Positions 11,198 to 64,000 of a stretch of 64,000 bases of DNA are shown piece after piece. Origin of the DNA: Aequorivita sp. (lineage in GTDB: Bacteria; Bacteroidota; Bacteroidia; Flavobacteriales; Flavobacteriaceae); assembly GCA_024637015.1 (NCBI GenBank), contig JAGXGE010000026.1, positions 1 through 64,000 on the forward strand, written 5' to 3'. The translations under genes were made by a program, and so were the position numbers. Numbering within the stretch: position 1 is the first letter of the stretch; each line of letters opens with the position of its first letter. The notes beneath the pieces were generated by a model that had not been told where the DNA came from, searched no databases, and saw only the letters and a program-made list of their open reading frames with translations.

Positions 11198-12271
11198 GTG
11201 GCGAAATTTCATAAAGTAAAAGTAAAAGACGTTTACAAAGAGACCGACGATTGTTCGGTAGTAACTTTTGACGTACCCGAAAATTTGGTTGATGAGTTCA
11301 AGTTTCGCCAAGGCCAACATTTAACCTTGAAAGCCGATATAAATGGCGAAGATACACGCCGGTCCTATAGTTTGTGCTCCAGTCCTGTAGACAACGAATG
11401 GAAAGTTGCGGTTAAATTAATTCCGGGAGGGGCATTTTCAACCTATGTAAATTCAGAATTGAAAACTGGAGATACTCTAGAAATTATGGAACCGAGCGGA
11501 ATGTTTGGGGTTGAAATTGAACCAGACAAAGCAAAAAACTATCTTTTTTTTGCGGCCGGAAGCGGAATTACCCCAGTGCTTTCAATGATCAAAACACATT
11601 TGGCATTGGAGCCAAATGCAACTTGCAAACTGTTTTATGTGAATAGAACGGCGAAATCCATTATCTTTAAAGAGACTTTGGAGGAGTTGCGCAATGAATA
11701 CTTCGGAAGGCTGGAAATCTATTATTTTCTCACGAAGGAACGTCGCGATATTGAACTTCTAAATGGTCGTTTTGATGATGAAAAAATGCAGGTTTTGACT
11801 AAAACCTTCATCGATATTCCTGATACTAGCGAAGTGTTTCTATGCGGTCCTGAGGAAATGATAAACTATGTAAGCAGTTATCTTGTAAAAGCTGGCTTGC
11901 CAAAAGAACTGATTCATTTTGAATTGTTCGTAACAGGTTTAACCGAAGAAGATAAAAAACGTGCCGAGCGTTTGGCGAAGCAAAATGTGGAAGGTGTTGA
12001 GATAACCATTGTTGATGCTGGAAAGGAATTCCAGTTCACAATGACCAAGGATTTTGATAACATTTTGGACGCAGCCCTCGCCGCTGGTGCAGATTTGCCT
12101 TTCGCCTGTAAAGGAGGCGTTTGCAGCACTTGCAAGTGTCAGATTTTAGAAGGCAGTGTAGAAATGAAAATAAATTACGCTTTGGAAGAAAAGGAAGTAG
12201 CCCAAAACTTTGTGTTGAGTTGCCAAGCCGTTCCAACTTCAGAAAAAGTGAAAGTAGATTTTGATGTTTAA
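11198..12271 (+). CDS. paaE: Phenylacetyl-CoA epoxidase reductase subunit PaaE
   Basis: A 357-residue reductase of the ring 1,2-epoxidase complex, passing electrons from NAD(P)H to the di-iron subunit PaaA. Domains in order: FAD-binding (RRSYSLCSS near residue 50), NAD(P)-binding (AAGSGITPVLSM near 118) and a C-terminal plant-type 2Fe-2S ferredoxin (CKGGVCSTCKC, with the fourth Cys in LSCQ). Length equals that of the E. coli enzyme. It starts at a GTG and is the first structural gene after the regulator, unlike the paaABCDE order of enterobacteria. Confidence 0.95.
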   Translation: MAKFHKVKVKDVYKETDDCSVVTFDVPENLVDEFKFRQGQHLTLKADINGEDTRRSYSLCSSPVDNEWKVAVKLIPGGAFSTYVNSELKTGDTLEIMEPSGMFGVEIEPDKAKNYLFFAAGSGITPVLSMIKTHLALEPNATCKLFYVNRTAKSIIFKETLEELRNEYFGRLEIYYFLTKERRDIELLNGRFDDEKMQVLTKTFIDIPDTSEVFLCGPEEMINYVSSYLVKAGLPKELIHFELFVTGLTEEDKKRAERLAKQNVEGVEITIVDAGKEFQFTMTKDFDNILDAALAAGADLPFACKGGVCSTCKCQILEGSVEMKINYALEEKEVAQNFVLSCQAVPTSEKVKVDFDV

Positions 12272-12300
12272 TTCCCCCTTTGAAGGGGGCTAGGGGGATG
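12272..12300. repeat. Dispersed palindrome, CCCCCTTTGAAGGGGG family
   Basis: TCCCCCTTTGAAGGGGG followed by CTAGGGGGATG begins right after the paaE stop. A near copy lies at 26512-26541 between the E2 and E1 genes, and a degenerate one near 61780-61803 before metH. Confidence 0.85.
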
Positions 12301-12326
12301 TTCTCCTAAGCTTAAAGCATATTACG

Positions 12327-13283
12327 ATGAGCGAAAAAGAAATAAAAAACTTAGAAGAAATTTTCGAAGCCCGCATTGCGCGCGATGAAAAGATAGAGCC
12401 AAAAGATTGGATGCCGGAGAAATACCGTAAAACGCACATTCGGCAGATAAGTCAGCACGCCCATTCCGAAGTTGTTGGAATGCTTCCCGAAGGAAATTGG
12501 ATTACTAGAGCTCCTTCTCTGCGAAGAAAAGCTGCTTTGCTGGCAAAAGTTCAGGATGAAGCAGGACACGGATTATATTTGTATTCCGCCTGTGAAACTT
12601 TAGGTATTTCTAGAGATGAGCTTTACGAACAACTGCACAGCGGAAAGGCAAAATACTCTTCAATTTTCAACTATCCAACAATCACTTGGGCCGATATGGG
12701 AGCCATTGGTTGGTTGGTTGATGGCGCGGCAATTATTAACCAAGTGCCACTGTGTAATACATCTTTCGGGCCTTATGCAAGAGCAATGGTTCGTGTATGC
12801 AAGGAAGAAAGTTTTCACCAACGCCAAGGATTTGAAATTATGCTAACCCTTTGCCGTGGTTCTGAAGAACAAAAAGCAATGGCACAAGATGCGCTAAACC
12901 GCTGGTGGTGGCCTAGTTTGATGATGTTGGGACCAACTGATGCTGAGTCTATTCATACAGAACAATCCATGAAATGGAAATTGAAACGAAAAAGTAATGA
13001 TGAATTGCGCCAACAATTTATAGATCAAACGGTGCCGCAAGCAGATTTGCTTGGACTTACAATTCCAGATCCCGATTTGAAGTTCAACAAAGAAACTGAT
13101 AGTTATGATTTTGGTGAAATTGATTGGGATGAATTTTGGCAAGTGGTAAAAGGTCATGGGCCTTGTAACAAAGAGCGAATGAGTGCCAGAGTAAACGCTT
13201 GGAATAATGGAGAATGGGTGCGTGATGCCGCGATGGCCCATGCCGAAAAGAAAGAAAAAAGAAAAGTAGCAAAAGCAAGTTAA
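12327..13283 (+). CDS. paaA: Phenylacetyl-CoA epoxidase catalytic subunit PaaA
   Basis: A 318-residue catalytic di-iron subunit that epoxidises the ring of phenylacetyl-CoA. Family hallmarks are [27 protein letters not shown] near residues 36-60, [12 protein letters not shown] near 77 and [12 protein letters not shown] near 164, which supply the carboxylate and His iron ligands. It is close in length to E. coli PaaA. It lies downstream of paaE and is separated from paaB by an intruding four-helix-bundle gene. It acts in the cytosol with PaaC, PaaB and PaaE. Confidence 0.96.
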
Positions 13284-13328
13284 GTAAGTATTGAGTATTG
13301 AGAAATTAGTAATGAGAATCTTACCATT
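13284..13328 (+). repeat. Heptad-repeat arm, left of the first four-helix-bundle gene
   Basis: The spacer reads as consecutive 7-nt units (GTATTGA twice, then GAAATTA, GTAATGA, GAATCTT). The complementary arm (units such as CAATACA, AAATACT, AACTACT) follows the gene at 13683-13725, so the gene sits in the loop of an imperfect inverted repeat. Confidence 0.75.
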
Positions 13329-13682
13329 ATGAATGTATTGAATGATTTAAAGGTTTGGAATAAAGCAATGGACATTGCAGTTGAAACCTATAAATTGTCT
13401 TCAAAATTTCCAAAAGAAGAAAAATACGGATTGACTAGCCAAATACGAAGAAGTGCCGTTTCTGTTCCGTCAAATATTGCTGAAGGCACAGGAAGAAATA
13501 CAAAAGGTGAATTTAAAAATTTCATTAGCATTGCAAATGGTTCAGCGTATGAGCTTTTTACTCAATTAATACTTTCACACAAGCTAAATTTAGTCTCAGA
13601 AAATTTGGTTGAACCTATTCTTAAAGAAGTAATAGAAGTACAAAAAATGAATTACGCATTAATTAAATCTTTAGAGAAATAA
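13329..13682 (+). CDS. Four-helix-bundle protein, 23S rRNA IVP-like
   Basis: A 117-residue protein of the family named after proteins encoded by 23S rRNA intervening sequences (PF05635 type). The family core is present: LKVWNKAMDIAVETY, FPKEEKYGLTSQIRRSAVSV and PSNIAEGTGR, followed by two more helices. It is not part of the phenylacetate pathway, yet it lies between paaA and paaB in the same orientation, flanked by inverted heptad arms, which suggests insertion of a cassette. Molecular function is unknown. Relatives include the nucleic-acid-binding Avd proteins of diversity-generating retroelements, but no reverse transcriptase is present here. Confidence 0.9.
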   Translation: MNVLNDLKVWNKAMDIAVETYKLSSKFPKEEKYGLTSQIRRSAVSVPSNIAEGTGRNTKGEFKNFISIANGSAYELFTQLILSHKLNLVSENLVEPILKEVIEVQKMNYALIKSLEK

Positions 13683-13725
13683 TGAATAACTCAATACAAA
13701 ATACTAACTACTCAAGACTTTATTT
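13683..13725 (+). repeat. Heptad-repeat arm, right of the first four-helix-bundle gene
   Basis: 7-nt units (AATAACT, CAATACA, AAATACT, AACTACT, CAAGACT) fill the whole spacer up to the paaB start. Their reverse complement resembles the arm at 13284-13328. Confidence 0.7.
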
Positions 13726-14010
13726 ATGAAAAAAAATTGGCCACTTTGGGAAATATTTGTCCGCAGTAAAAACGGATTGGAACACCGTCATTTTGGAAGT
13801 CTTCACGCTGCAGATGCGGAAATGGCTCTGGAAAATGCCCGTGATGTTTATACCCGAAGAAATGAAGGCGTGAGCATTTGGGTTGTTGAAAGTAAAAACA
13901 TTACTGCTTCAAATCCTGCAGATAATGGTGAAATGTTTGAACCTGCACAGGACAAAGTGTATCGTCATCCAACGTTTTATGATTTGCCGGATGAGGTGAA
14001 ACATATGTAA
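13726..14010 (+). CDS. paaB: Phenylacetyl-CoA epoxidase subunit PaaB
   Basis: A 94-residue small subunit of the epoxidase, which bridges the PaaAC catalytic units in the E. coli complex. The sequence opens with WPLWEIFVRSKNGLEHRHFG and has the HAADAEMALENARDVYTRRNEG block typical of PaaB. Length is normal. It is the first gene after the inserted four-helix-bundle cassette; its own leader is the right heptad arm. Confidence 0.95.
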   Translation: MKKNWPLWEIFVRSKNGLEHRHFGSLHAADAEMALENARDVYTRRNEGVSIWVVESKNITASNPADNGEMFEPAQDKVYRHPTFYDLPDEVKHM

Positions 14011-14121
14011 AAGGAAATTAAAAATGTAAAAATTAAAACCGAAGAATGTAAAAGTGCATAGAAGCCAATTAGAAACTTTATCATTTTACATTTATAATTT
14101 TAAATTTTTCAGTTTAAAAAT
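14011..14121. repeat. Heptad inverted-repeat spacer (ATGTAAA type)
   Basis: The spacer between paaB and paaC has a left arm of A-rich 7-nt units (such as AAAAATG and TAAAACC), a short non-repeated centre and a right arm of T-rich units (such as TACATTT and TAAATTT) that is roughly complementary. No gene is present. Confidence 0.7.
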
Positions 14122-14874
14122 ATGGACAAGAATCTCTATAATTACATCCTCACAATTGCTGACAATTCCCTGATTTTAGCGCAGCGATTGGGTGAACTCT
14201 GCGGTCATGGTCCAAGCTTGGAAACCGATATTGCATTGACCAATATTTCCTTGGATTTGCTAGGCCAAACCCGAAGTTATTACCAATATGCGGCAAAAAT
14301 TTCCGGAGAAGGTAAAAGTGAAGACGATATCGCTTTCCTAAGAATCGAGAGGGAATACAAAAATTGTTTATTAGTTGAACAACCAAATACACATTTTGGG
14401 TATACAATAGGACGTCAGTTTTTGTTTGATGTCTATCATTTAATGTTGATGGAAAAATTGCAGAACAGTCCCGATGAAACTTTAGCTGCAATTGCCAAAA
14501 AAGGAATTAAGGAAGTGAGTTATCACAAACGTTTTTCAAGCGATTGGGTAAAACGTTTGGGTGATGGCACTGAAGAAAGTAACACTAAAATGCAGGAAGC
14601 AATCGATGATCTTTGGCGATACACCGATGAACTTTTCTTCATGACTGATGCTGAAAATGCTATGGTGAAAGAAGGCATCGGAATCGATGTTTCATCTTTT
14701 AAAGTGAAGTATTACAAAGAGGTTTCCGAAGTTTTAAAAGAAGCCGCCCTTACAGTCCCCGAAAACAAATATTTTGCCAAAGGTGGAAAAGAAGGAGTTC
14801 ACACAGAACATATGGGCTATATTTTGGCTGATTTGCAATATATGCAGCGCACCTATCCGAATATGTCTTGGTAA
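14122..14874 (+). CDS. paaC: Phenylacetyl-CoA epoxidase structural subunit PaaC
   Basis: A 250-residue ferritin-like subunit that pairs with PaaA and stabilises it. Recognisable segments are LGHGPSLE-like LCGHGPSLETDIALTNISLD near residue 27, LGQTRSYYQYAA near 46, and KEVSYHKRFSSDWVKRLGDG near 131. Length matches the E. coli protein. It is flanked on both sides by heptad inverted-repeat spacers. Confidence 0.95.
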   Translation: MDKNLYNYILTIADNSLILAQRLGELCGHGPSLETDIALTNISLDLLGQTRSYYQYAAKISGEGKSEDDIAFLRIEREYKNCLLVEQPNTHFGYTIGRQFLFDVYHLMLMEKLQNSPDETLAAIAKKGIKEVSYHKRFSSDWVKRLGDGTEESNTKMQEAIDDLWRYTDELFFMTDAENAMVKEGIGIDVSSFKVKYYKEVSEVLKEAALTVPENKYFAKGGKEGVHTEHMGYILADLQYMQRTYPNMSW

Positions 14875-14987
14875 AAAGATTAACGATTGCTGATTTTTGA
14901 TTGCAGATTTCAGAACTAAAGAGCAATTGACTTAATATTTTAAACTTCAACAATCAAAAATCGTTAATCTGCAATCGTTAATAAATT
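14875..14987. repeat. Heptad inverted-repeat spacer (GATTGCA type)
   Basis: The left arm starts at the paaC stop with 7-nt units all beginning GATT (such as GATTAAC, GATTGCT and GATTGCA). The right arm (about 14948-14980) carries complementary units (AATCGTT, AATCTGC). It can fold into a long imperfect hairpin in the mRNA. Confidence 0.8.
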
Positions 14988-15491
14988 ATGACACTTACAG
15001 AAAAAGCAAACATACAAGAGAATTTAATCCCGGTTTTGAAAACAGTTTCAGATCCAGAAATTCCTGTGCTTTCTGTTTTGGATCTGGGTGTAATTCGCGA
15101 AGCAATAGAAGAAAATGGAATTGTTCACATAAAACTCACTCCAACCTATTCCGGTTGTCCCGCAATGGATGTAATAGGTGATGATTTAAAAAAAGCTTTT
15201 TCAGAAATAGGAAAGAAAGCAGAAGTTGAATTGATTCTTTCGCCAGCCTGGTCGACAGATTGGATAAGCGAAGAAGGACTTCAAAAAATGGAGGAATACG
15301 GCATAGCCCGTCCACTTTCAGAAACTGCCGACAAAGATGTTTTGCTCGGCGAAAAAAAACTGGTAAAATGTCCGCAATGCGGAAGCACAAATACCCATCT
15401 AGTTAGTCAATTTGGTTCCACGGCTTGCAAAGCACTTTTTAAATGCGACGATTGCCAAGAACCGTTTGATTATTTTAAATGTTTAAAATAG
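14988..15491 (+). CDS. paaD: PaaD, Fe-S/maturation factor of the epoxidase
   Basis: A 167-residue protein with an N-terminal DUF59/MIP18 domain (DPEIPVLSVLDLGVIRE; TPTYSGCPAMDVI with its conserved Cys) and a C-terminal zinc-ribbon-like part with CPQCGS and CDDCQEPFDYFKC. PaaD is needed for epoxidase activity in E. coli and is presumed to act in metal-centre assembly. Length and domain order are normal. Confidence 0.94.
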   Translation: MTLTEKANIQENLIPVLKTVSDPEIPVLSVLDLGVIREAIEENGIVHIKLTPTYSGCPAMDVIGDDLKKAFSEIGKKAEVELILSPAWSTDWISEEGLQKMEEYGIARPLSETADKDVLLGEKKLVKCPQCGSTNTHLVSQFGSTACKALFKCDDCQEPFDYFKCLK

Positions 15492-15586
15492 CGAAAATAA
15501 AAAACCGAAAAATGTAAAATTTCAAAGTCAAAAGTAAATTCTTTATTATTGAGACTTTTGCGGTTTTACATTTTAAATTTATATAA
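15492..15586. repeat. Heptad inverted-repeat spacer (ATGTAAA type)
   Basis: A left arm with ACCGAAAAATGTAAAA and a right arm with GTTTTACATTTTAAATTT, both in 7-nt steps. It resembles the spacers at 16367-16452, 19508-19591 and 24509-24601. Confidence 0.75.
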
Positions 15587-16366
15587 ATGAAAAGTATACT
15601 AACCAATATAGATAACAAAATAGTAACCTTAACACTAAACCGTCCAGAGGTTTTCAATAGCTTCAATCGAGAAATGGCATTATTGCTTCAAAATGAATTG
15701 GACGCTGCGGAAAAAAATCCTGAAGTACGGGCAATTGTAATCACTGGAAGTGGAAAAGCGTTCTGTGCCGGACAGGATCTAAAGGAAGTGACTTCACCTG
15801 AGTTAAATCCCGGCTTCAAAAAAATTCTTGAAGAACATTACAACCCAATTATATCTCGAATTAGAAACATTGAAAAACCAATAATTGGTGCCATTAACGG
15901 TGTAGCCGCCGGGGCGGGAGCCAATATAGCTTTGGCCTGCGATGTTGTTATTGCTTCAGAAAACGCAAATTTTATTCAGGCATTCAGTAAAATAGGATTG
16001 ATTCCTGACAGTGCTGGAACGTTCTTTTTGCCAAGATTGATAGGTTTTCAAAAAGCATCGGCCTTGATGATGCTGGGCGATAAAGTCTCTGCCCAAGAAG
16101 CAGAAAAACTTGGAATGGTTTATAAAGTGGTTGCTACAGAAAGTTTTTCGGAAGAAGTAAATAATATTGTAAGCACATTGGCAAATATGCCTACTAAAGC
16201 GTTAGGGTTAACCAAGCGTTTGCTCAACCAATCAATGCAAAACTCTTTGGAAGAACAATTAAATTTGGAAAGCAAACTGCAAATTGAAGCTGCACAAAGT
16301 GAAGATTATGCAGAAGGGGTTGATGCATTTGTAAATAAAAGAAAACCTGAATTTAAAGGGAAGTAA
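15587..16366 (+). CDS. paaG: 1,2-epoxyphenylacetyl-CoA isomerase PaaG
   Basis: A 259-residue crotonase-fold enzyme that converts ring-epoxide CoA to oxepin-CoA. Crotonase hallmarks are the CoA-binding GKAFCAGQDLKE segment (near residue 54), the oxyanion-hole GAINGVAAGAGANIALACD (near 103) and IGLIPDSAGTFFLPRLIG, typical of PaaG. It follows paaD, as in many paa clusters. Confidence 0.9.
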   Translation: MKSILTNIDNKIVTLTLNRPEVFNSFNREMALLLQNELDAAEKNPEVRAIVITGSGKAFCAGQDLKEVTSPELNPGFKKILEEHYNPIISRIRNIEKPIIGAINGVAAGAGANIALACDVVIASENANFIQAFSKIGLIPDSAGTFFLPRLIGFQKASALMMLGDKVSAQEAEKLGMVYKVVATESFSEEVNNIVSTLANMPTKALGLTKRLLNQSMQNSLEEQLNLESKLQIEAAQSEDYAEGVDAFVNKRKPEFKGK

Positions 16367-16452
16367 AATTAAAAATGTAAAACCGAAAAATGTAAAAGTT
16401 AAAAGTGTTTTTTAAAAGAATTTTTAACTTTTACATTTATCATTTAAAATTT
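16367..16452. repeat. Heptad inverted-repeat spacer (ATGTAAA type)
   Basis: The left arm has units such as AAATGTA, AAACCGA and AAAATGT; the right arm has TTTACAT, TTATCAT and TTAAAAT. Arms of roughly 40 and 30 nt can pair. The right arm ends directly at the paaH start codon. Confidence 0.8.
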
Positions 16453-17628
16453 ATGATTAAAAACGTTGGAATTATAGGAAGCGGAACAATGGGTGCCGGC
16501 ATCGCACAAGTAGCCGCGACAGCCGGTTGCTCAGTAAAATTATACGATACAAAAACCGAAGCCTTGGATAAAGCCAAAGCTGATTTGGAAAAAATAATGG
16601 ATCGTTTGGTGGAGAAAGGAAAAATCGATTCCACGGAAAAAGAACGTATCCAAAACAACATAAAATATGTCAGTTCACTTAAAGAATTGAAAGATTCCGA
16701 TTTGACAATTGAAGCAATTGTCGAAAATTTGGACATAAAGAAAAATGTGTTTTCAACCCTTGAAAAGTTTGTAAGTGAAGATTGTATTATTGCGTCTAAT
16801 ACTTCTTCTCTTTCCATAGCTTCTATAGCTTCTTCATTGCAAAAACCGGAACGCTGCATTGGAATTCACTTTTTCAATCCAGCGCCATTGATGAAATTGG
16901 TTGAGGTAATTCCCGCAATCCAAACTTCCGAGGAAACTTTAAATATTTCAGTAAAAACAATTAAGGATTGGGGAAAAACGGTTGCGGTTGCAAAAGATAC
17001 TCCCGGATTTATTGTAAACCGCGTTGCACGCCCTTTTTACGGCGAAGCACTTCGCATTTATGAAGAAGGAACTGCAACTTTTTCTGAAATAGATTCCGCG
17101 ATGAAAGAAATTGGAGGTTTCAGAATGGGGCCTTTCGAGTTGATGGATTTTATTGGGAACGATGTAAATTATACAGTAACAGAAACCGTTTTTGAAGCAT
17201 TTTATTTCGACCCACGTTACAAACCCTCCTTCACTCAAAAACGTTTTTCGGAGGCTGGATATCTTGGAAGAAAAAGCGGAAAGGGATATTATGATTATTC
17301 AAGCGAAATGAATGTCTCCTCGAGCGCAGTCGAGAGGTCAATTGATAAAGAAAAATCTGAATCAATATTTAACCGTATTCTCGTAATGCTCATCAACGAA
17401 GCTGCCGACGCCTTATTTTGGAATATCGCTTCTGCTGAAGATATAGACACTGCAATGACCAAAGGTGTAAATTACCCAAAAGGTTTATTGGCATGGGCAG
17501 ATGAAAAAGGAATAGATTGGTGTGTCAAGAAAATGGACGAACTTTATGAAGAATACCACGAAGATCGTTATCGTTGTTCACCATTATTACGAAAAATGAA
17601 TAGGGAAGGTATGAGGTTTTTTGATTAA
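16453..17628 (+). CDS. paaH: 3-hydroxyacyl-CoA dehydrogenase PaaH
   Basis: A 391-residue NAD-dependent dehydrogenase for the 3-hydroxyadipyl-CoA step. The chosen ATG at 16453 places GIIGSGTMGAGIAQVAA at the N-terminus as a normal Rossmann fold; the 16 upstream in-frame residues come from the repeat spacer. The catalytic region IGIHFFNPAPLMKLVEV and the C-terminal helical domain (GRKSGKGYYDYS) are present. A 28-bp dispersed palindrome (17312-17339) is inserted in frame and encodes about nine residues (SSSAVERS region) in a surface-type linker. The protein otherwise seems intact. Confidence 0.92.
   Translation: MIKNVGIIGSGTMGAGIAQVAATAGCSVKLYDTKTEALDKAKADLEKIMDRLVEKGKIDSTEKERIQNNIKYVSSLKELKDSDLTIEAIVENLDIKKNVFSTLEKFVSEDCIIASNTSSLSIASIASSLQKPERCIGIHFFNPAPLMKLVEVIPAIQTSEETLNISVKTIKDWGKTVAVAKDTPGFIVNRVARPFYGEALRIYEEGTATFSEIDSAMKEIGGFRMGPFELMDFIGNDVNYTVTETVFEAFYFDPRYKPSFTQKRFSEAGYLGRKSGKGYYDYSSEMNVSSSAVERSIDKEKSESIFNRILVMLINEAADALFWNIASAEDIDTAMTKGVNYPKGLLAWADEKGIDWCVKKMDELYEEYHEDRYRCSPLLRKMNREGMRFFD
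17312..17339. repeat. Palindrome inserted in frame inside paaH
   Basis: Identical over 28 bp to 8673-8700. It lies after the KGYYDYS segment and keeps the reading frame. Confidence 0.9.
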
Positions 17629-17714
17629 CGATTGCAGAATGCTGATTGCAGATTGCTGAAGTGAGAAAACTTCAAAAATCAACAATCGTTGTTCTTCAAT
17701 CTTCAATTTTTTAA
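17629..17714. repeat. Heptad inverted-repeat spacer (GATTGCA type)
   Basis: From the paaH stop the left arm runs in 7-nt steps (GATTAAC, GATTGCA, GAATGCT, GATTGCT). The right arm contains AACAATCGTTG and CAATCTTCAAT, partly complementary. Same family as 14875-14987. Confidence 0.75.
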
Positions 17715-18119
17715 ATGGAAGGAAAGAAAATACCACATAAAATGCTCAGTCAAGATGCTTTTAGTTCTTGGCTTGGTATTGAAATATTGGAAGTTGAAAA
17801 GGGTAGATGCAAAGTTGCGATGACGGTTCGCAAAGAAATGCTAAACAGTATGAACAAAGCTCACGGCGGCATCAGTTATTCTTTGGCTGATACAGCTTTC
17901 GGATTTGCAGCAAACACTCACGGTAAGTATGCCGTTTCCATTGAAACTTCAATAAACCACATTGAAGCATTAAACGAAGGTGATTTTTTAATAGCAGAAT
18001 CCGTAATCGAAAAAGTAAATAACAAACTAGGTTTTAATATTGTGGAAGTAAAGCGCGGTGATGAATTGGTGGCACTTTTTAAAGGCGTTGTTTATAGGAC
18101 CAGCAAGGATTGGGAATAG
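17715..18119 (+). CDS. paaI: Hotdog-fold acyl-CoA thioesterase PaaI
   Basis: A 134-residue hotdog thioesterase. The active-site helix region NKAHGGISYSLADTAFGFAAN (near residue 51) carries the HGG and the Asp typical of PaaI. PaaI hydrolyses phenylacetyl-CoA-derived dead-end thioesters and so frees CoA. Length fits the family. It lies between paaH and a metallopeptidase gene. Confidence 0.92.
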   Translation: MEGKKIPHKMLSQDAFSSWLGIEILEVEKGRCKVAMTVRKEMLNSMNKAHGGISYSLADTAFGFAANTHGKYAVSIETSINHIEALNEGDFLIAESVIEKVNNKLGFNIVEVKRGDELVALFKGVVYRTSKDWE

Positions 18120-18239
18120 TAAAATTAACGATATCTGATTTTTGATTGCAGATTCTTGAAGTGATAATATTCAAATTGTAAGCTTAATTTTAAGTCAACA
18201 ATATTAAATGAACCCTTAACAAATATAAATGTTCAAATT
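18120..18239. repeat. Heptad left arm, degenerate spacer
   Basis: The first half has the same GATT-type 7-nt units as 14875-14987. The second half has no clear complementary arm. No gene is present. Confidence 0.6.
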
Positions 18240-19097
18240 ATGAAATGGCAAGGCAGAAGACAAAGTGATAACGTTGATGACCGTCGCGGAATGAGCAAAG
18301 GTAAGTTGGCCGCAGGTGGCGGTATTGTGGTTACATTAATTGTGCTGGCACTAAATTTCTTTGGAGGTGAAACTGGACAACAACTTGCACCAATCGTAGA
18401 GCAAATTGGAAACAGCCAGACCATTCAGCAAACTGAGCAAAGAGAACTTACTGCTCAGGAAAAAGAAATGGGAAACTTTATGGCTACCGTTTTAGCTGAT
18501 ACTGAAGATATTTGGAGCCAAATTTTTAAACAAAATAATATTGGGGAATACGAAGACCCAACCATGGTTTTATTTACTGATGCAGTAAGCACTGGCTGTG
18601 GAAATGCGAGTTCAGCTTCGGGGCCTTTTTACTGTCCGGCGGATCATAAACTGTATATGGATTTGGCATTTTTTGATGAATTGAAAACTCGTTTTGGTGC
18701 AGAGGGGGGTGATTTCGCCATTGCCTATGTAACAGCTCACGAAATAGGTCATCACGTACAGACATTACTCGGAACTTCCCAAAAAGTAACACAACTGCAA
18801 CGCCAAAATAGAAATGAAGCCAACAGACTTTCAGTAGCATTGGAACTTCAGGCAGATTTTTATGCGGGACTTTGGGCACACTACAATCAAGAATATTTGG
18901 AAGAGGGCGATATACAGGAAGCGTTGAGCGCAGCAAATGCAGTAGGTGATGACGCTATTCAAAAAAGAACACAGGGCAATGTTGTTCCCGATAGTTTTAC
19001 CCACGGAAGCTCCGAACAGCGTATGAAGTGGTTTATGAAAGGCTATAAAACTGGTGATATAAAACAGGGTGATACCTTTTCGGAAATATTGAATTAA
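18240..19097 (+). CDS. Neutral zinc metallopeptidase, YpfJ family
   Basis: A 285-residue membrane-anchored peptidase of the YpfJ/KPN_02809 family. The N-terminus has the family pattern MKWQGRRQSDNVDDRRG, then one transmembrane helix (about residues 30-42), then an extracytoplasmic domain with the zinc motif HEIGHH (near residue 166) and a downstream ELQADFYAG segment. It has a paired Cys motif (STGCGNASSASGPFYC). Its substrate is unknown, and its position inside the paa cluster is unexplained; co-transcription may be incidental. Confidence 0.9.
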   Translation: MKWQGRRQSDNVDDRRGMSKGKLAAGGGIVVTLIVLALNFFGGETGQQLAPIVEQIGNSQTIQQTEQRELTAQEKEMGNFMATVLADTEDIWSQIFKQNNIGEYEDPTMVLFTDAVSTGCGNASSASGPFYCPADHKLYMDLAFFDELKTRFGAEGGDFAIAYVTAHEIGHHVQTLLGTSQKVTQLQRQNRNEANRLSVALELQADFYAGLWAHYNQEYLEEGDIQEALSAANAVGDDAIQKRTQGNVVPDSFTHGSSEQRMKWFMKGYKTGDIKQGDTFSEILN

Positions 19098-19141
19098 AAG
19101 GATGAAAGCCAGTAAGAAACCGAAAAATGTAAAATAATAAA
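19098..19141 (+). repeat. Heptad left arm before the second four-helix-bundle gene
   Basis: Contains AACCGAAAAATGTAAAA, repeated directly after the gene at 19508-19524. This leaves the four-helix-bundle gene between two direct copies of a left arm. Confidence 0.65.
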
Positions 19142-19507
19142 GTGAAAAGTCAAAATAAATACGATTTACAGGAACGATTGGTAAAGTTTTCTGCAAAAAT
19201 AATTTTGAGTGTTGGACTATTAAAAAGAAATTTTGCTACAGAACATTTAACGAAACAACTTATACGCTCAGTAACATCAGCTGCACTGAATTATGGTGAG
19301 GCGCAAGGCGCAGAATCAAAAAAAGATTTTGCTCATAAAATGAAATTGGTCTTAAAAGAATTGCGGGAATCACAAGTTAATTTGCAGATTTTAAAAGAAG
19401 CAGATTTAATAAACCAAAGAGAAGAATTTACTTTTATCGAAAACGAATGCAAAGAACTTGTTGCAATATTTACCGCAAGTATTAATACCACAAAACAAAA
19501 AATGTAA
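19142..19507 (+). CDS. Four-helix-bundle protein (second copy, divergent)
   Basis: A 121-residue all-helical protein related to the 23S rRNA IVP-like family, but without the FPKEE-YGLTxQIRR core. It has the variant LIRSVTSAALNYGEAQGAES and a conserved KMKLVLKELRESQVNLQIL helix. It starts at GTG. It stands between the metallopeptidase and paaJ genes in the operon direction and is bordered by the heptad sequence ACCGAAAAATGTAAAA on both sides. It is likely a member of the same inserted cassette type as 13329-13682. Function unknown. Confidence 0.8.
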   Translation: MKSQNKYDLQERLVKFSAKIILSVGLLKRNFATEHLTKQLIRSVTSAALNYGEAQGAESKKDFAHKMKLVLKELRESQVNLQILKEADLINQREEFTFIENECKELVAIFTASINTTKQKM

Positions 19508-19591
19508 AACCGAAAAATGTAAAATTTTAAATTTAAAAGTGAATCTTAATAGCACTTTTACATTTTACATTTATCATTTAAAATTTAACTT
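19508..19591. repeat. Heptad inverted-repeat spacer (ATGTAAA type)
   Basis: Left arm ACCGAAAAATGTAAAATTT; right arm in 7-nt units TTTACAT, TTTACAT, TTATCAT, TTAAAAT. Nearly the same as 16367-16452. Confidence 0.8.
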
Positions 19592-20803
19592 TTGAAAAAC
19601 GCATATATAATAGACGGGATACGAACTCCAATAGGAAGTTATCAAGGGGCATTAAGCACTGTGCGAACAGATGATTTGGCAGCATTGGTAATTGCTGAAA
19701 TAGTAAAAAGAAACCCAAACATTCCCAAAGAAGCCTATGATGATGTAATTCTGGGTTGTGCCAATCAAGCGGGCGAAGACAATAGAAATGTTGCTCGAAT
19801 GGCTTCATTGTTAGCTGGCTTGCCTTTTACAGTGCCGGGAGAAACAATAAACAGACTTTGCAGCAGTGGACTTTCAGCAATCATTCACGCCAATAGAGCT
19901 ATAAAAGCTGGCGATGGCGATCTGTTTATTTCTGGTGGAGTTGAAAATATGACACGCGGACCTTATGTAATTGCAAAACCTTCAAAAGCTTTCGGAACAG
20001 ATTCTAAAATGTACGATTCCAGTTTTGGATGGCGATTCGTAAATCCAAAAATGGCCGAAATGTATGGCACTGACGGAATGGGAAACACAGCTGAAAATTT
20101 GGTTGAAAAACACAACATTTCCCGTGAAGACCAAGATGCATTTGCATATCATTCACAAATGAAAGCTACAAAAGCTCAGGAAAATGGAAGGTTGGCTAAA
20201 GAAATAGTTTCTGTGGAAATTCCACAGCGAAAAAAAGACCCAATTATTTTTAAAGATGATGAATTCATTCGTCCCGAAACCACCAAAGAAGTTTTAGCGA
20301 AATTGCGTCCAGCCTTCAAAAAAGATGGAAGTGTAACCGCAGGAAATTCTTCAGGATTAAATGACGGTGCTGCTGCTACAATTATTGCTTCGGAAGATGC
20401 AGTTAAAAAATATAATTTGAAACCCATTGCTAGAATAGTAAGTTCTGCAGTAGTTGGAGTTGAACCTCGAATTATGGGAATCGGTCCCGTTGAAGCTTCA
20501 AACAAAGCTCTGAAAAAAGCTGGCTTGAAAATGGAAGATATGGATATAATAGAGTTAAACGAAGCATTTGCTTCACAAGCCTTAGCTTGCATTCGCGAAT
20601 GGGGACTTAAAGATGACGACCAACGTATTAACCCAAACGGTGGTTCCATTGCAATTGGCCATCCGCTTGGTGTTACTGGAGCTCGGCTTGCTTATTCAGC
20701 GGCTATAGAACTTCAAGAGCAAAACAAAAGATATGCCTTAATCACCATGTGTGTAGGTGTGGGGCAAGGATATGCGGCTATAATAGAAAATGTGAATTAT
20801 TAG
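19592..20803 (+). CDS. paaJ: 3-oxoadipyl-CoA / acetyl-CoA acyltransferase PaaJ
   Basis: A 403-residue thiolase that cleaves 3-oxoadipyl-CoA and 3-oxo-5,6-dehydrosuberyl-CoA. The nucleophilic Cys lies in INRLCSSGLSAI (near residue 90), the second His/Cys motifs in ELNEAFASQALA and NPNGGSIAIGHPLGVTGAR, and CVGVGQGYA is the C-terminal catalytic Cys loop. It starts at a TTG directly after a heptad arm. Two nucleotides separate its stop from the paaZ start. Confidence 0.92.
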   Translation: MKNAYIIDGIRTPIGSYQGALSTVRTDDLAALVIAEIVKRNPNIPKEAYDDVILGCANQAGEDNRNVARMASLLAGLPFTVPGETINRLCSSGLSAIIHANRAIKAGDGDLFISGGVENMTRGPYVIAKPSKAFGTDSKMYDSSFGWRFVNPKMAEMYGTDGMGNTAENLVEKHNISREDQDAFAYHSQMKATKAQENGRLAKEIVSVEIPQRKKDPIIFKDDEFIRPETTKEVLAKLRPAFKKDGSVTAGNSSGLNDGAAATIIASEDAVKKYNLKPIARIVSSAVVGVEPRIMGIGPVEASNKALKKAGLKMEDMDIIELNEAFASQALACIREWGLKDDDQRINPNGGSIAIGHPLGVTGARLAYSAAIELQEQNKRYALITMCVGVGQGYAAIIENVNY

Positions 20804-63804: not shown

Positions 63805-64000
63805 ATGGAATATAGAGATTTGGATGTTTGGAAGTTTTCTAGAGAACTTGTTAATTCTGTTTATAAGTTGACAAAAAGTTTTCCAAAAGAAGAATTATAT
63901 GGATTGACCAATCAAATAAGAAGATGCGCGGTTTCAATTCCTTCAAATATTGCGGAAGGTTGCGGAAGAAGAACGTCAAAAGATACAATCCAATTTTTAT
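63805..64000 (+). CDS. Four-helix-bundle protein, 23S rRNA IVP-like (partial)
   Basis: The first 65 residues are in the window and the gene runs off the end. It has the same core as the protein at 13329-13682: YRDLDVWKFSRELVNSVY, FPKEELYGLTNQIRRCAVSI and PSNIAEGCGRR. It begins at an ATG directly after a heptad arm, in the same direction as the metH unit. Function unknown; it is the third such gene in 64 kb and the second with the full core. Confidence 0.9.
   Translation, partial: MEYRDLDVWKFSRELVNSVYKLTKSFPKEELYGLTNQIRRCAVSIPSNIAEGCGRRTSKDTIQFL

Follow-up and report, generated by a model that had tools for sequence, protein, structure and literature searches.

A gene of the IVP/S23 four-helix-bundle family, set between complementary arms of tandem heptads, was identified in the spacer between paaA and paaB of Aequorivita sp. 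(GenBank assembly GCA_024637015.1, contig JAGXGE010000026.1, positions 1 to 64,000 of the forward strand; these 64,000 nucleotides are referred to as the window). On balance, we lean towards reading this locus as an intervening sequence (IVS)-type element that lies outside rRNA and has a protein linked to a repeat unit of its own, similar in arrangement to repetitive extragenic palindromes (REPs) and their RAYT genes and having no known catalytic domain. The recurrence of the same plan around the IVP family suggests a widespread, little-described selfish or semi-selfish element that is kin to the IVS of rRNA. The features of the locus are the following.

12327..13283, plus strand: paaA, the upstream host gene (TIGR02156, 532 bits).
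13288..13322, plus strand: left arm of five heptads with the unit GTATTGA (read by eye; arm z 3.8, lag-7 z 4.1).
13329..13682, plus strand: IVP/S23 four-helix-bundle gene, 117 aa (PF05635, 136.3 bits; TIGR02436, 130 bits; NF008911, 147 bits).
13690..13724, plus strand: right arm of five heptads, complementary to the left arm (read by eye, by inverted pairing and by RNA fold).
13726..14010, plus strand: paaB, the downstream host gene (TIGR02157, 150 bits).

A first-pass annotation made from the letters of this stretch had placed the gene in the centre between complementary heptad arms, and this was confirmed: 13329-13682 is a PF05635/TIGR02436 gene between arms of about five heptads each. The left arm was read by eye as GTATTGA, GTATTGA, GAAATTA, GTAATGA and GAATCTT, the right arm as CTCAATA, CAAAATA, CTAACTA, CTCAAGA and CTTTATT, with the degenerate units being the outer ones in both. 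Positions 13286-13316 and 13690-13720 are complementary at 77% across 31 nt. Compared with mononucleotide shuffles, z values of 3.8 for inverted arms and 4.1 for lag 7 were obtained, and the arm score of 17 exceeded the 95th percentile of swapped flank pairs (14). In the predicted RNA, the arms are paired in both the minimum free energy and the centroid fold. The element measures 442 nt and carries its gene in sense orientation within a spacer of the paa cluster; the host is thus a protein operon, as had been proposed, and an Rfam search of window positions 12000-20500 gave no match. PF05635 was the only domain found in the 13329-13682 protein, with no Y1 nuclease domain, and its solved relatives in the PDB are 2gsc and 2rld.

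The generality of this arrangement was determined in all 28 genomes of the genus, which contain 5-21 PF05635 matches each and 317 in total. Among the matches listed (about half of the 317, best scores first), 77 loci were read, comprising the one or two best per genome and others picked by hand, with weak matches being under-sampled. After exclusion of L007 and then of L063, L004 and L006, which are cut by a contig end or truncated, 74 loci were kept; 60 of them, at 26 sites, had at least 30 bp of intergenic flank on both sides and were usable, and 14 were dropped. The controls were 82 small open reading frames (ORFs) from 400 kb of genus DNA, 52 of which were dropped by the same flank rule to leave 30. 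Gene calling followed a simple ORF rule. Flanks were scored as inverted when their arm score exceeded the 95th percentile of swapped flank pairs, and as periodic when their score was above that of mononucleotide shuffles.

Inverted arms were found at 43 of the 60 usable IVP loci versus 0 of 30 control ORFs, and periodic flanks at 49 of 60 versus 2 of 30, so that the survey against other small genes proposed in the first-pass annotation came out in its favor. The best lag among the periodic loci was 7 (29 loci), 8 (18) or 6 (2). Counted as one locus per site, since loci of the same site are not independent, 19/26 were inverted and 24/26 periodic. Both signs reached z > 3 at 35 of 60 IVP loci, at none of the 30 control ORFs, and at one of 145 control spacers. 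These controls, together with those of the named-locus survey described below, bear on the simplest alternative, an ordinary operon gene whose AT-rich flanks look like arms by chance. AT-rich spacers easily yield short inverted repeats (22 pairs in 701 bp), yet the controls of both surveys, and the comparable flanks noted by eye in GC-rich genomes, e.g. Geobacter and Nitrosomonadales, render this explanation highly improbable.

The paired arm length had a median of 4.8 units at the 43 genus loci with good arms, a value to which the cut-off on the arm score contributes by imposing a minimum paired length. Paired arms were longer with 8-nt than with 7-nt units (p = 0.005 in the genus, 0.03 in the named set). 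One unit per IVP subunit is a guess from the coincidence between five-unit arms and a pentamer. Both neighbors were co-directional with the IVP gene at 72 of 73 genus loci (27 of 28 sites) versus 51 of the 82 control ORFs (p = 2.5e-4 by site). Such an orientation bias would follow from a role at the RNA level and equally from selection for read-through expression.

Beyond the genus, a PF05635 match was present in 116 of 148 genomes sampled from the phylum Bacteroidota; 21 of the 29 high-scoring loci in this sample were usable (8 dropped), with 14 inverted and 15 periodic. A further 80 named loci were taken among the matches listed from a scan of 84,980 species genomes (GTDB), of which a 25-bp flank rule dropped 28. 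In Bacteroidota, 32 of 42 named loci were usable (21/32 inverted, 28/32 periodic), and both neighbors, where known, were co-directional in 37/40. Outside Bacteroidota, 20 of 38 were usable, 16/20 being inverted and 16/20 periodic; these other groups include Clostridia, Planctomycetes, and Cloacimonadota. Rfam analysis of 20 of the 80 named loci for rRNA-hosted copies revealed no rRNA; the matches obtained were tmRNA, an SAH riboswitch, and two Acido-Lenti-1.

Matching plasmid records numbered 40; among the matches listed were 20, all cyanobacterial, and 10 of these were read. All 10 loci had period-7 or period-8 flanks with z > 3.5 each. In three of them the IVP gene lies among cas genes, twice in the order cas6-IVP-cas4 and once as cas10-IVP-Cmr3 family (L363, L364, L366). 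No IVP relative was found in phage records.

The paaA-paaB junction itself occurs in several states. The first-pass annotation had proposed looking for strains without the segment, and such strains are frequent in the genus: the gene, with GTATTGA-type arms, is present in 8 of 28 genomes including that of the window (the L013 copy has a broken frame), a gene-less spacer of 79-123 bp in 16, a 1-bp gap in three, and a different insert in one. The spacer lengths were measured to the aligned paaB start, and some include the first paaB codons. Many gene-less spacers contain GACGTGA or GACGTAA units, and 6 of the 16 passed both z > 3 tests. The 1-bp gap was also found in two genomes of the same family, and the different insert (L037, genome G002) measures 599 bp and has apparent other small reading frames. 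In the gene-less GACGTAA-type spacers L019, L026, L027, L032, L034, and L036, a AGCGAAGCGG-like piece is common to the right halves.

On a tree of paaA plus paaB, in which many branches are weak, the IVP state requires five changes, of which two or more are imposed by well-supported branches, and the hairpin state of the spacer differs between the sister species L014 and L018. At paaB-paaC, many genus genomes have inserts of about 420-610 bp, several with ends of short units (6 or 7 nt, by eye), and an IVP-like frame was detected there in L015, L023, L024, and L032 by tblastn with the paaAB protein. Another genus site holds three IVP types and three units in different species. The arm sequence varies between sites, and several IVP copies have internal stops.

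The synonymous divergence (dS) of the IVP gene was lower than that of both paaA and paaB in 21 of 21 pairs among the seven intact paaAB copies, with means of 0.55 for IVP, 1.20 for paaA, and 0.98 for paaB. For all sites, it lay below that of both neighbors in 42 and above both in eight of 61 pairs with both neighbors measured; these pairs had been preselected at 75% protein identity, which biases the test toward low IVP dS. The ratio of nonsynonymous to synonymous divergence (dN/dS) was 0.034 for the IVP of the seven intact paaAB orthologues, L013 being excluded with its broken frame, and 0.03-0.11 across seven IVP orthologue groups. In L057/L058, the clearest of seven pairs aligned, most segments across the gene and 120 bp on either side of it were 92-100% identical (85% in two 20-bp segments), and identity was 79% farther upstream and 84-86% farther downstream. 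L061/L072 resembles this pattern; in L065/L105 and L044/L056 a large part of the flank matches as well as the element itself does, and in L047/L060 and L073/L088 the arm lengths are very different. Arm length shifts by whole units, i.e. 7 bp between L044 and L056 and 14 bp between L061 and L072. Low IVP dS and element-centered similarity fit lateral arrival or conversion at a fixed place, and short-tract recombination may be the source of the similarity pattern.

A DNA search with the element found the left arm alone elsewhere; at some of these places (L160-L162) the unit forms a gene-less hairpin between co-directional genes. Arrays of three units were then counted, and the comparison of genomes with and without the matching IVP gene is as follows, with up to one mismatch allowed, the 28 genus genomes as the set, and the Mann-Whitney U test as statistic; the counts take in overlapping matches and the IVP gene's own arms, which reduces their weight for an element reading. 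GTATTGA arrays numbered 8-32 in carriers of the paaAB IVP and 0-18 in the others (p = 8e-5, or 9e-5 if two genomes with such arms on a related IVP join the carriers), and a reversed control pattern was not higher in carriers. CATCAAC arrays numbered 7-85 in carriers (at least 91% identity) and 0-17 in the others (p = 8e-4). For AGTTGAGG, carriers (at least 79% identity) had 3-130 arrays and the others 0-6 (p = 4e-4), with three genomes that have 71-75% relatives and different arm units (L054, L079, L085) scored as noncarriers; the reversed control is uninformative here, as it is nearly the same repeat. In G025, nearly all 22 AGTTGAGG matches are arrays beside its own IVP gene. Carriers exceeded their nearest noncarrier in 8/8, 5/5, and 4/4 cases for the three units (17/17). 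Independent pairs on well-supported branches numbered 2 + 2 + 3, of which on average 1.7 + 1.6 + 2.9 agreed (6.2/7) and 0.0 opposed. Irrespective of unit, 8 of 9 IVP-bearing genomes had lag 7-8 arrays (24 in 73 kb of spacer), and none was found in 29.7 kb of spacer from four IVP-lacking genomes. In genome G002, AGTTGAGG arrays placed at intervals form clusters of 1-2.5 kb (C1:3135100-3137581, around the L316 IVP gene, and 609041-610093).

The association of units with IVP genes is correlational, and its cause may run either way. In one alternative the arrays come first: heptad and octad arrays arise by polymerase slippage, IVP genes merely settle there, and the protein is unconnected with the repeats. 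Slippage-like unit gains do occur, and a unit-rich genome could offer more landing sites. Heptamer arrays are also described for Xanthomonas, Nostoc, and Beggiatoaceae with no IVP mention in the parts consulted (PMC4692102, PMC4679880). Slippage alone, however, would not give arms inverted about the gene, as they are at 43 of the 60 genus loci, and the correspondence between IVP and unit that three units show across genomes and the lack of lag 7-8 arrays in the four IVP-lacking genomes likewise speak against it. So does a Luteimonas IVP gene (L267) with GGGAATC-type heptads on both sides, this unit being the reported genome-wide repeat of Xanthomonas, where 70 and 75 inverted pairs are given for two genomes (PMC4692102). 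The L267 flanks may thus bear on the Xanthomonas repeats; at a second Luteimonas locus (L250), no GGGAATC-type array was present in the stretch read. Taken together, we regard an origin of the plan from arrays alone as unlikely.

A second alternative assigns the element to the equipment of the host rather than to mobile DNA. A ring-shaped RNA-binding IVP would act as a regulator on tandem units, its own arms serving autoregulation and the gene-free arrays forming a regulon, in a logic that can be likened to TRAP, a ring-shaped RNA-binding protein. Purifying selection in the seven orthologue groups and the matching arrays in IVP-carrying genomes agree with such a function, as do arms of about five units that lengthen with 8-nt units, in view of the homopentamer reported for the Xanthomonas homologue (PMC4990558). 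A regulator would not be expected to be patchy at one site (8/28), to be replaced by different IVP types at the same site, to have a lower dS than both neighbors, or to have internal stops in several copies, and the units mostly differ between sites of one genome. This explanation is therefore considered rather unlikely, too.

For the preferred reading of an IVS-type element with a protein tied to its unit, the sequence-level findings comprise the architecture, its generality, site-specific units, whole-unit changes, purifying selection, low dS, and matching arrays; beyond these, we infer mobility, processing, and recognition of the arms by the protein. By analogy with Coxiella, the arms in the paa transcript would form a stem that is a likely RNase III site. 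A pentameric IVP may bind its own unit, and this binding could aid the copying or insertion of arm-bearing sequence at new or homologous spacers via a host enzyme. Gene-less hairpins would then be nonautonomous derivatives, as REPs are to RAYT genes.

Several observations weigh against this reading. A 448-nt fold of the whole element was no better than shuffles (z -1.0; 16/100 as good), no compensatory change was seen in 23 predicted pairs (5 of the 16 gene-less paaAB spacers), and comparison of filled and empty paaA-paaB junctions revealed neither a target-site duplication recognizable by eye nor a clean element boundary. The arms are direct rather than inverted in L081, L203, L209, and L364, and only 5/10 cyanobacterial plasmid loci had an inverted-arm z of at least 3.8. 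Among named loci outside Bacteroidota with both neighbors known, only 17/31 had co-directional neighbors. The phylogenetically independent pairs are few (seven), and some noncarriers do have arrays, namely 18 for GTATTGA in G006 and 17, 11, and 10 for CATCAAC in G017, G013, and G018, respectively. In the IVP-bearing genome G122, 4.5 kb of spacer was free of arrays. The contrast in arrays extends beyond lags 7-8, because those of other lags are also more common with IVP (18 in nine genomes versus 3 in four). Across genus sites, the similarity of proteins followed that of units weakly (Spearman 0.10; 7/500 permutations as high), and the L046/L049/L051 proteins are approximately 72% identical to that of L002, yet their units differ. 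Finally, RVT_1 had no match in 19 of 28 genus genomes, all with 5-21 PF05635 matches, and Y1_Tnp had none in 9 of the 28; therefore, no mobilizing enzyme was identified. On these counts, a resident reverse transcriptase and a Y1 transposase were both set aside as mobilizers.

A wider proposal goes further. IVP would be the trans-acting part of a pan-bacterial form of repeat spreading, a noncatalytic pentamer that recognizes a 7-8-nt unit which is private to it and changes fast, each subunit taking roughly one unit of a five-unit arm, and that promotes the copying of arrays and hairpins into operon spacers; rRNA IVS and a number of 'orphan' heptamer repeats in the literature would be manifestations of it. 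We put this forward as tentative, with the doubts prevailing. Confidence in this proposal, as in the element reading itself, was lowered slightly because of the weak orientation bias outside Bacteroidota, the 5/10 inverted plasmid loci, and the array contrast beyond lags 7-8.

The window contains further features of the same kind.

14011..14121, plus strand: gene-less hairpin spacer paaB-paaC, unit near TTTTACA by eye (arm z 4.5, period z 2.1).
14875..14987, plus strand: gene-less hairpin spacer after paaC, unit near GATTNNN by eye (arm z 5.5, period z 3.3).
19184..19468, plus strand: second, divergent PF05635 profile match (L008), 50 bits, start codon unsettled, TTTTACA-type flanks.
63805..64000, plus strand: third IVP gene (profile match, 142 bits), continuing beyond the window end, arms GTTGATG/CATCAAC.

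The first-pass annotation had taken the neighboring spacers for the empty form of the element. They are indeed gene-less hairpins of the same plan, but with other units and without common sequence, and only the likeness of plan can be upheld. In other genus genomes the paaB-paaC junction has IVP genes or different spacers. The flanks of 19184-19468 gave an arm score of 17 and a period score of 18 at lag 7. A TTTTACA/TGTAAAA-type unit (by eye) is common to 14011-14121, 15492-15586, 16367-16450, and these flanks. Before paaA, 12272-12326 is a C-rich/G-rich repeat (ccccctttgaagggggctaggggga), a similar form of which was observed in a spacer of another genome (L163). The genome of the window has nine PF05635 matches, perhaps eight genes, because the overlap between L004 and L007 is exact over 141 nt: contigs C23 and C26 end inside these IVP genes, which are either a single gene split by the assembly or two copies whose ends are identical. 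Most of the matches in this genome have short-unit flanks, and the units mostly differ from place to place.

IVP/S23 is a very common family of unknown function; if the element reading is true, it gains a genetic context and a testable partner, i.e. its own repeat arms. It would also raise the question how a protein that has neither a nuclease nor a polymerase domain spreads repeats. An open-licence literature search yielded no paper that we recognized as linking IVP genes with heptad arms at places other than rRNA, and S23 or helix-bundle terms had no match in the portions seen of two papers on heptamer repeats (PMC4679880, PMC4692102).

The closest known system is the IVS of Coxiella 23S rRNA, which is reported to measure 428-444 nt and to have an S23p ORF and a 28-bp terminal stem; tandem GACAGAT heptamers, whose number depends on the strain, precede the ORF, and RNase III is reported to cleave there (PMC4990558, seen in part). 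The shared plan with 23S rRNA IVS had been anticipated in the first-pass annotation, and the likeness is closer than was known then, with tandem heptamers beside the S23p ORF. Size (442 nt here), a single S23/IVP ORF, complementary ends, tandem heptamers, and varying copy number are common to both, as far as the Coxiella account was available. In contrast to 23S rRNA IVS, the paaA-paaB element lies in a spacer of protein genes, has another unit, and shares this unit with gene-free arrays elsewhere in the genome. According to the parts consulted, the Xanthomonas IVP homologue forms a homopentameric torus (PMC4990558), and IVP ORFs occur within rRNA insertions of Candidate Phyla Radiation (CPR) bacteria (PMC11270868).

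The comparison extends to three other systems. In REP/RAYT, a gene for a Y1 transposase (RAYT) is flanked by inverted repeat units of which the genome has many noncoding matching copies. The IVP gene likewise has inverted units on its two sides, and matching copies of them are dispersed in the genome (three units tested), but IVP has no Y1 (HUH) domain, and its units are 7-8-nt tandems rather than palindromic REPs. Avd of diversity-generating retroelements (DGRs) is a distant protein relative (NF033474, 26 bits, below the cut-off of 80); unlike in DGRs, no RVT_1 match was obtained in the genome of the window at E ≤ 0.001. With intergenic heptamer repeats, a kind of simple sequence repeat (SSR), the element shares tandem 7-nt units in intergenic DNA, some of them as inverted pairs. 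The short tandemly repeated repetitive (STRR) sequences of cyanobacteria are such intergenic heptamer repeats. TAACTGA heptamers are described for Beggiatoaceae, cyanobacteria, and some Bacteroidetes, with Aequorivita sublithincola being named in the part seen (PMC4679880). The paaA-paaB element thus probably works like an IVS, yet it is not an rRNA IVS, nor a RAYT or a DGR, and probably not a miniature inverted-repeat transposable element (MITE); if so, three puzzles that have stood apart, the IVS of rRNA, the heptamer repeats of intergenic DNA, and the scattered genes for four-helix-bundle proteins, would be joined in one element class.
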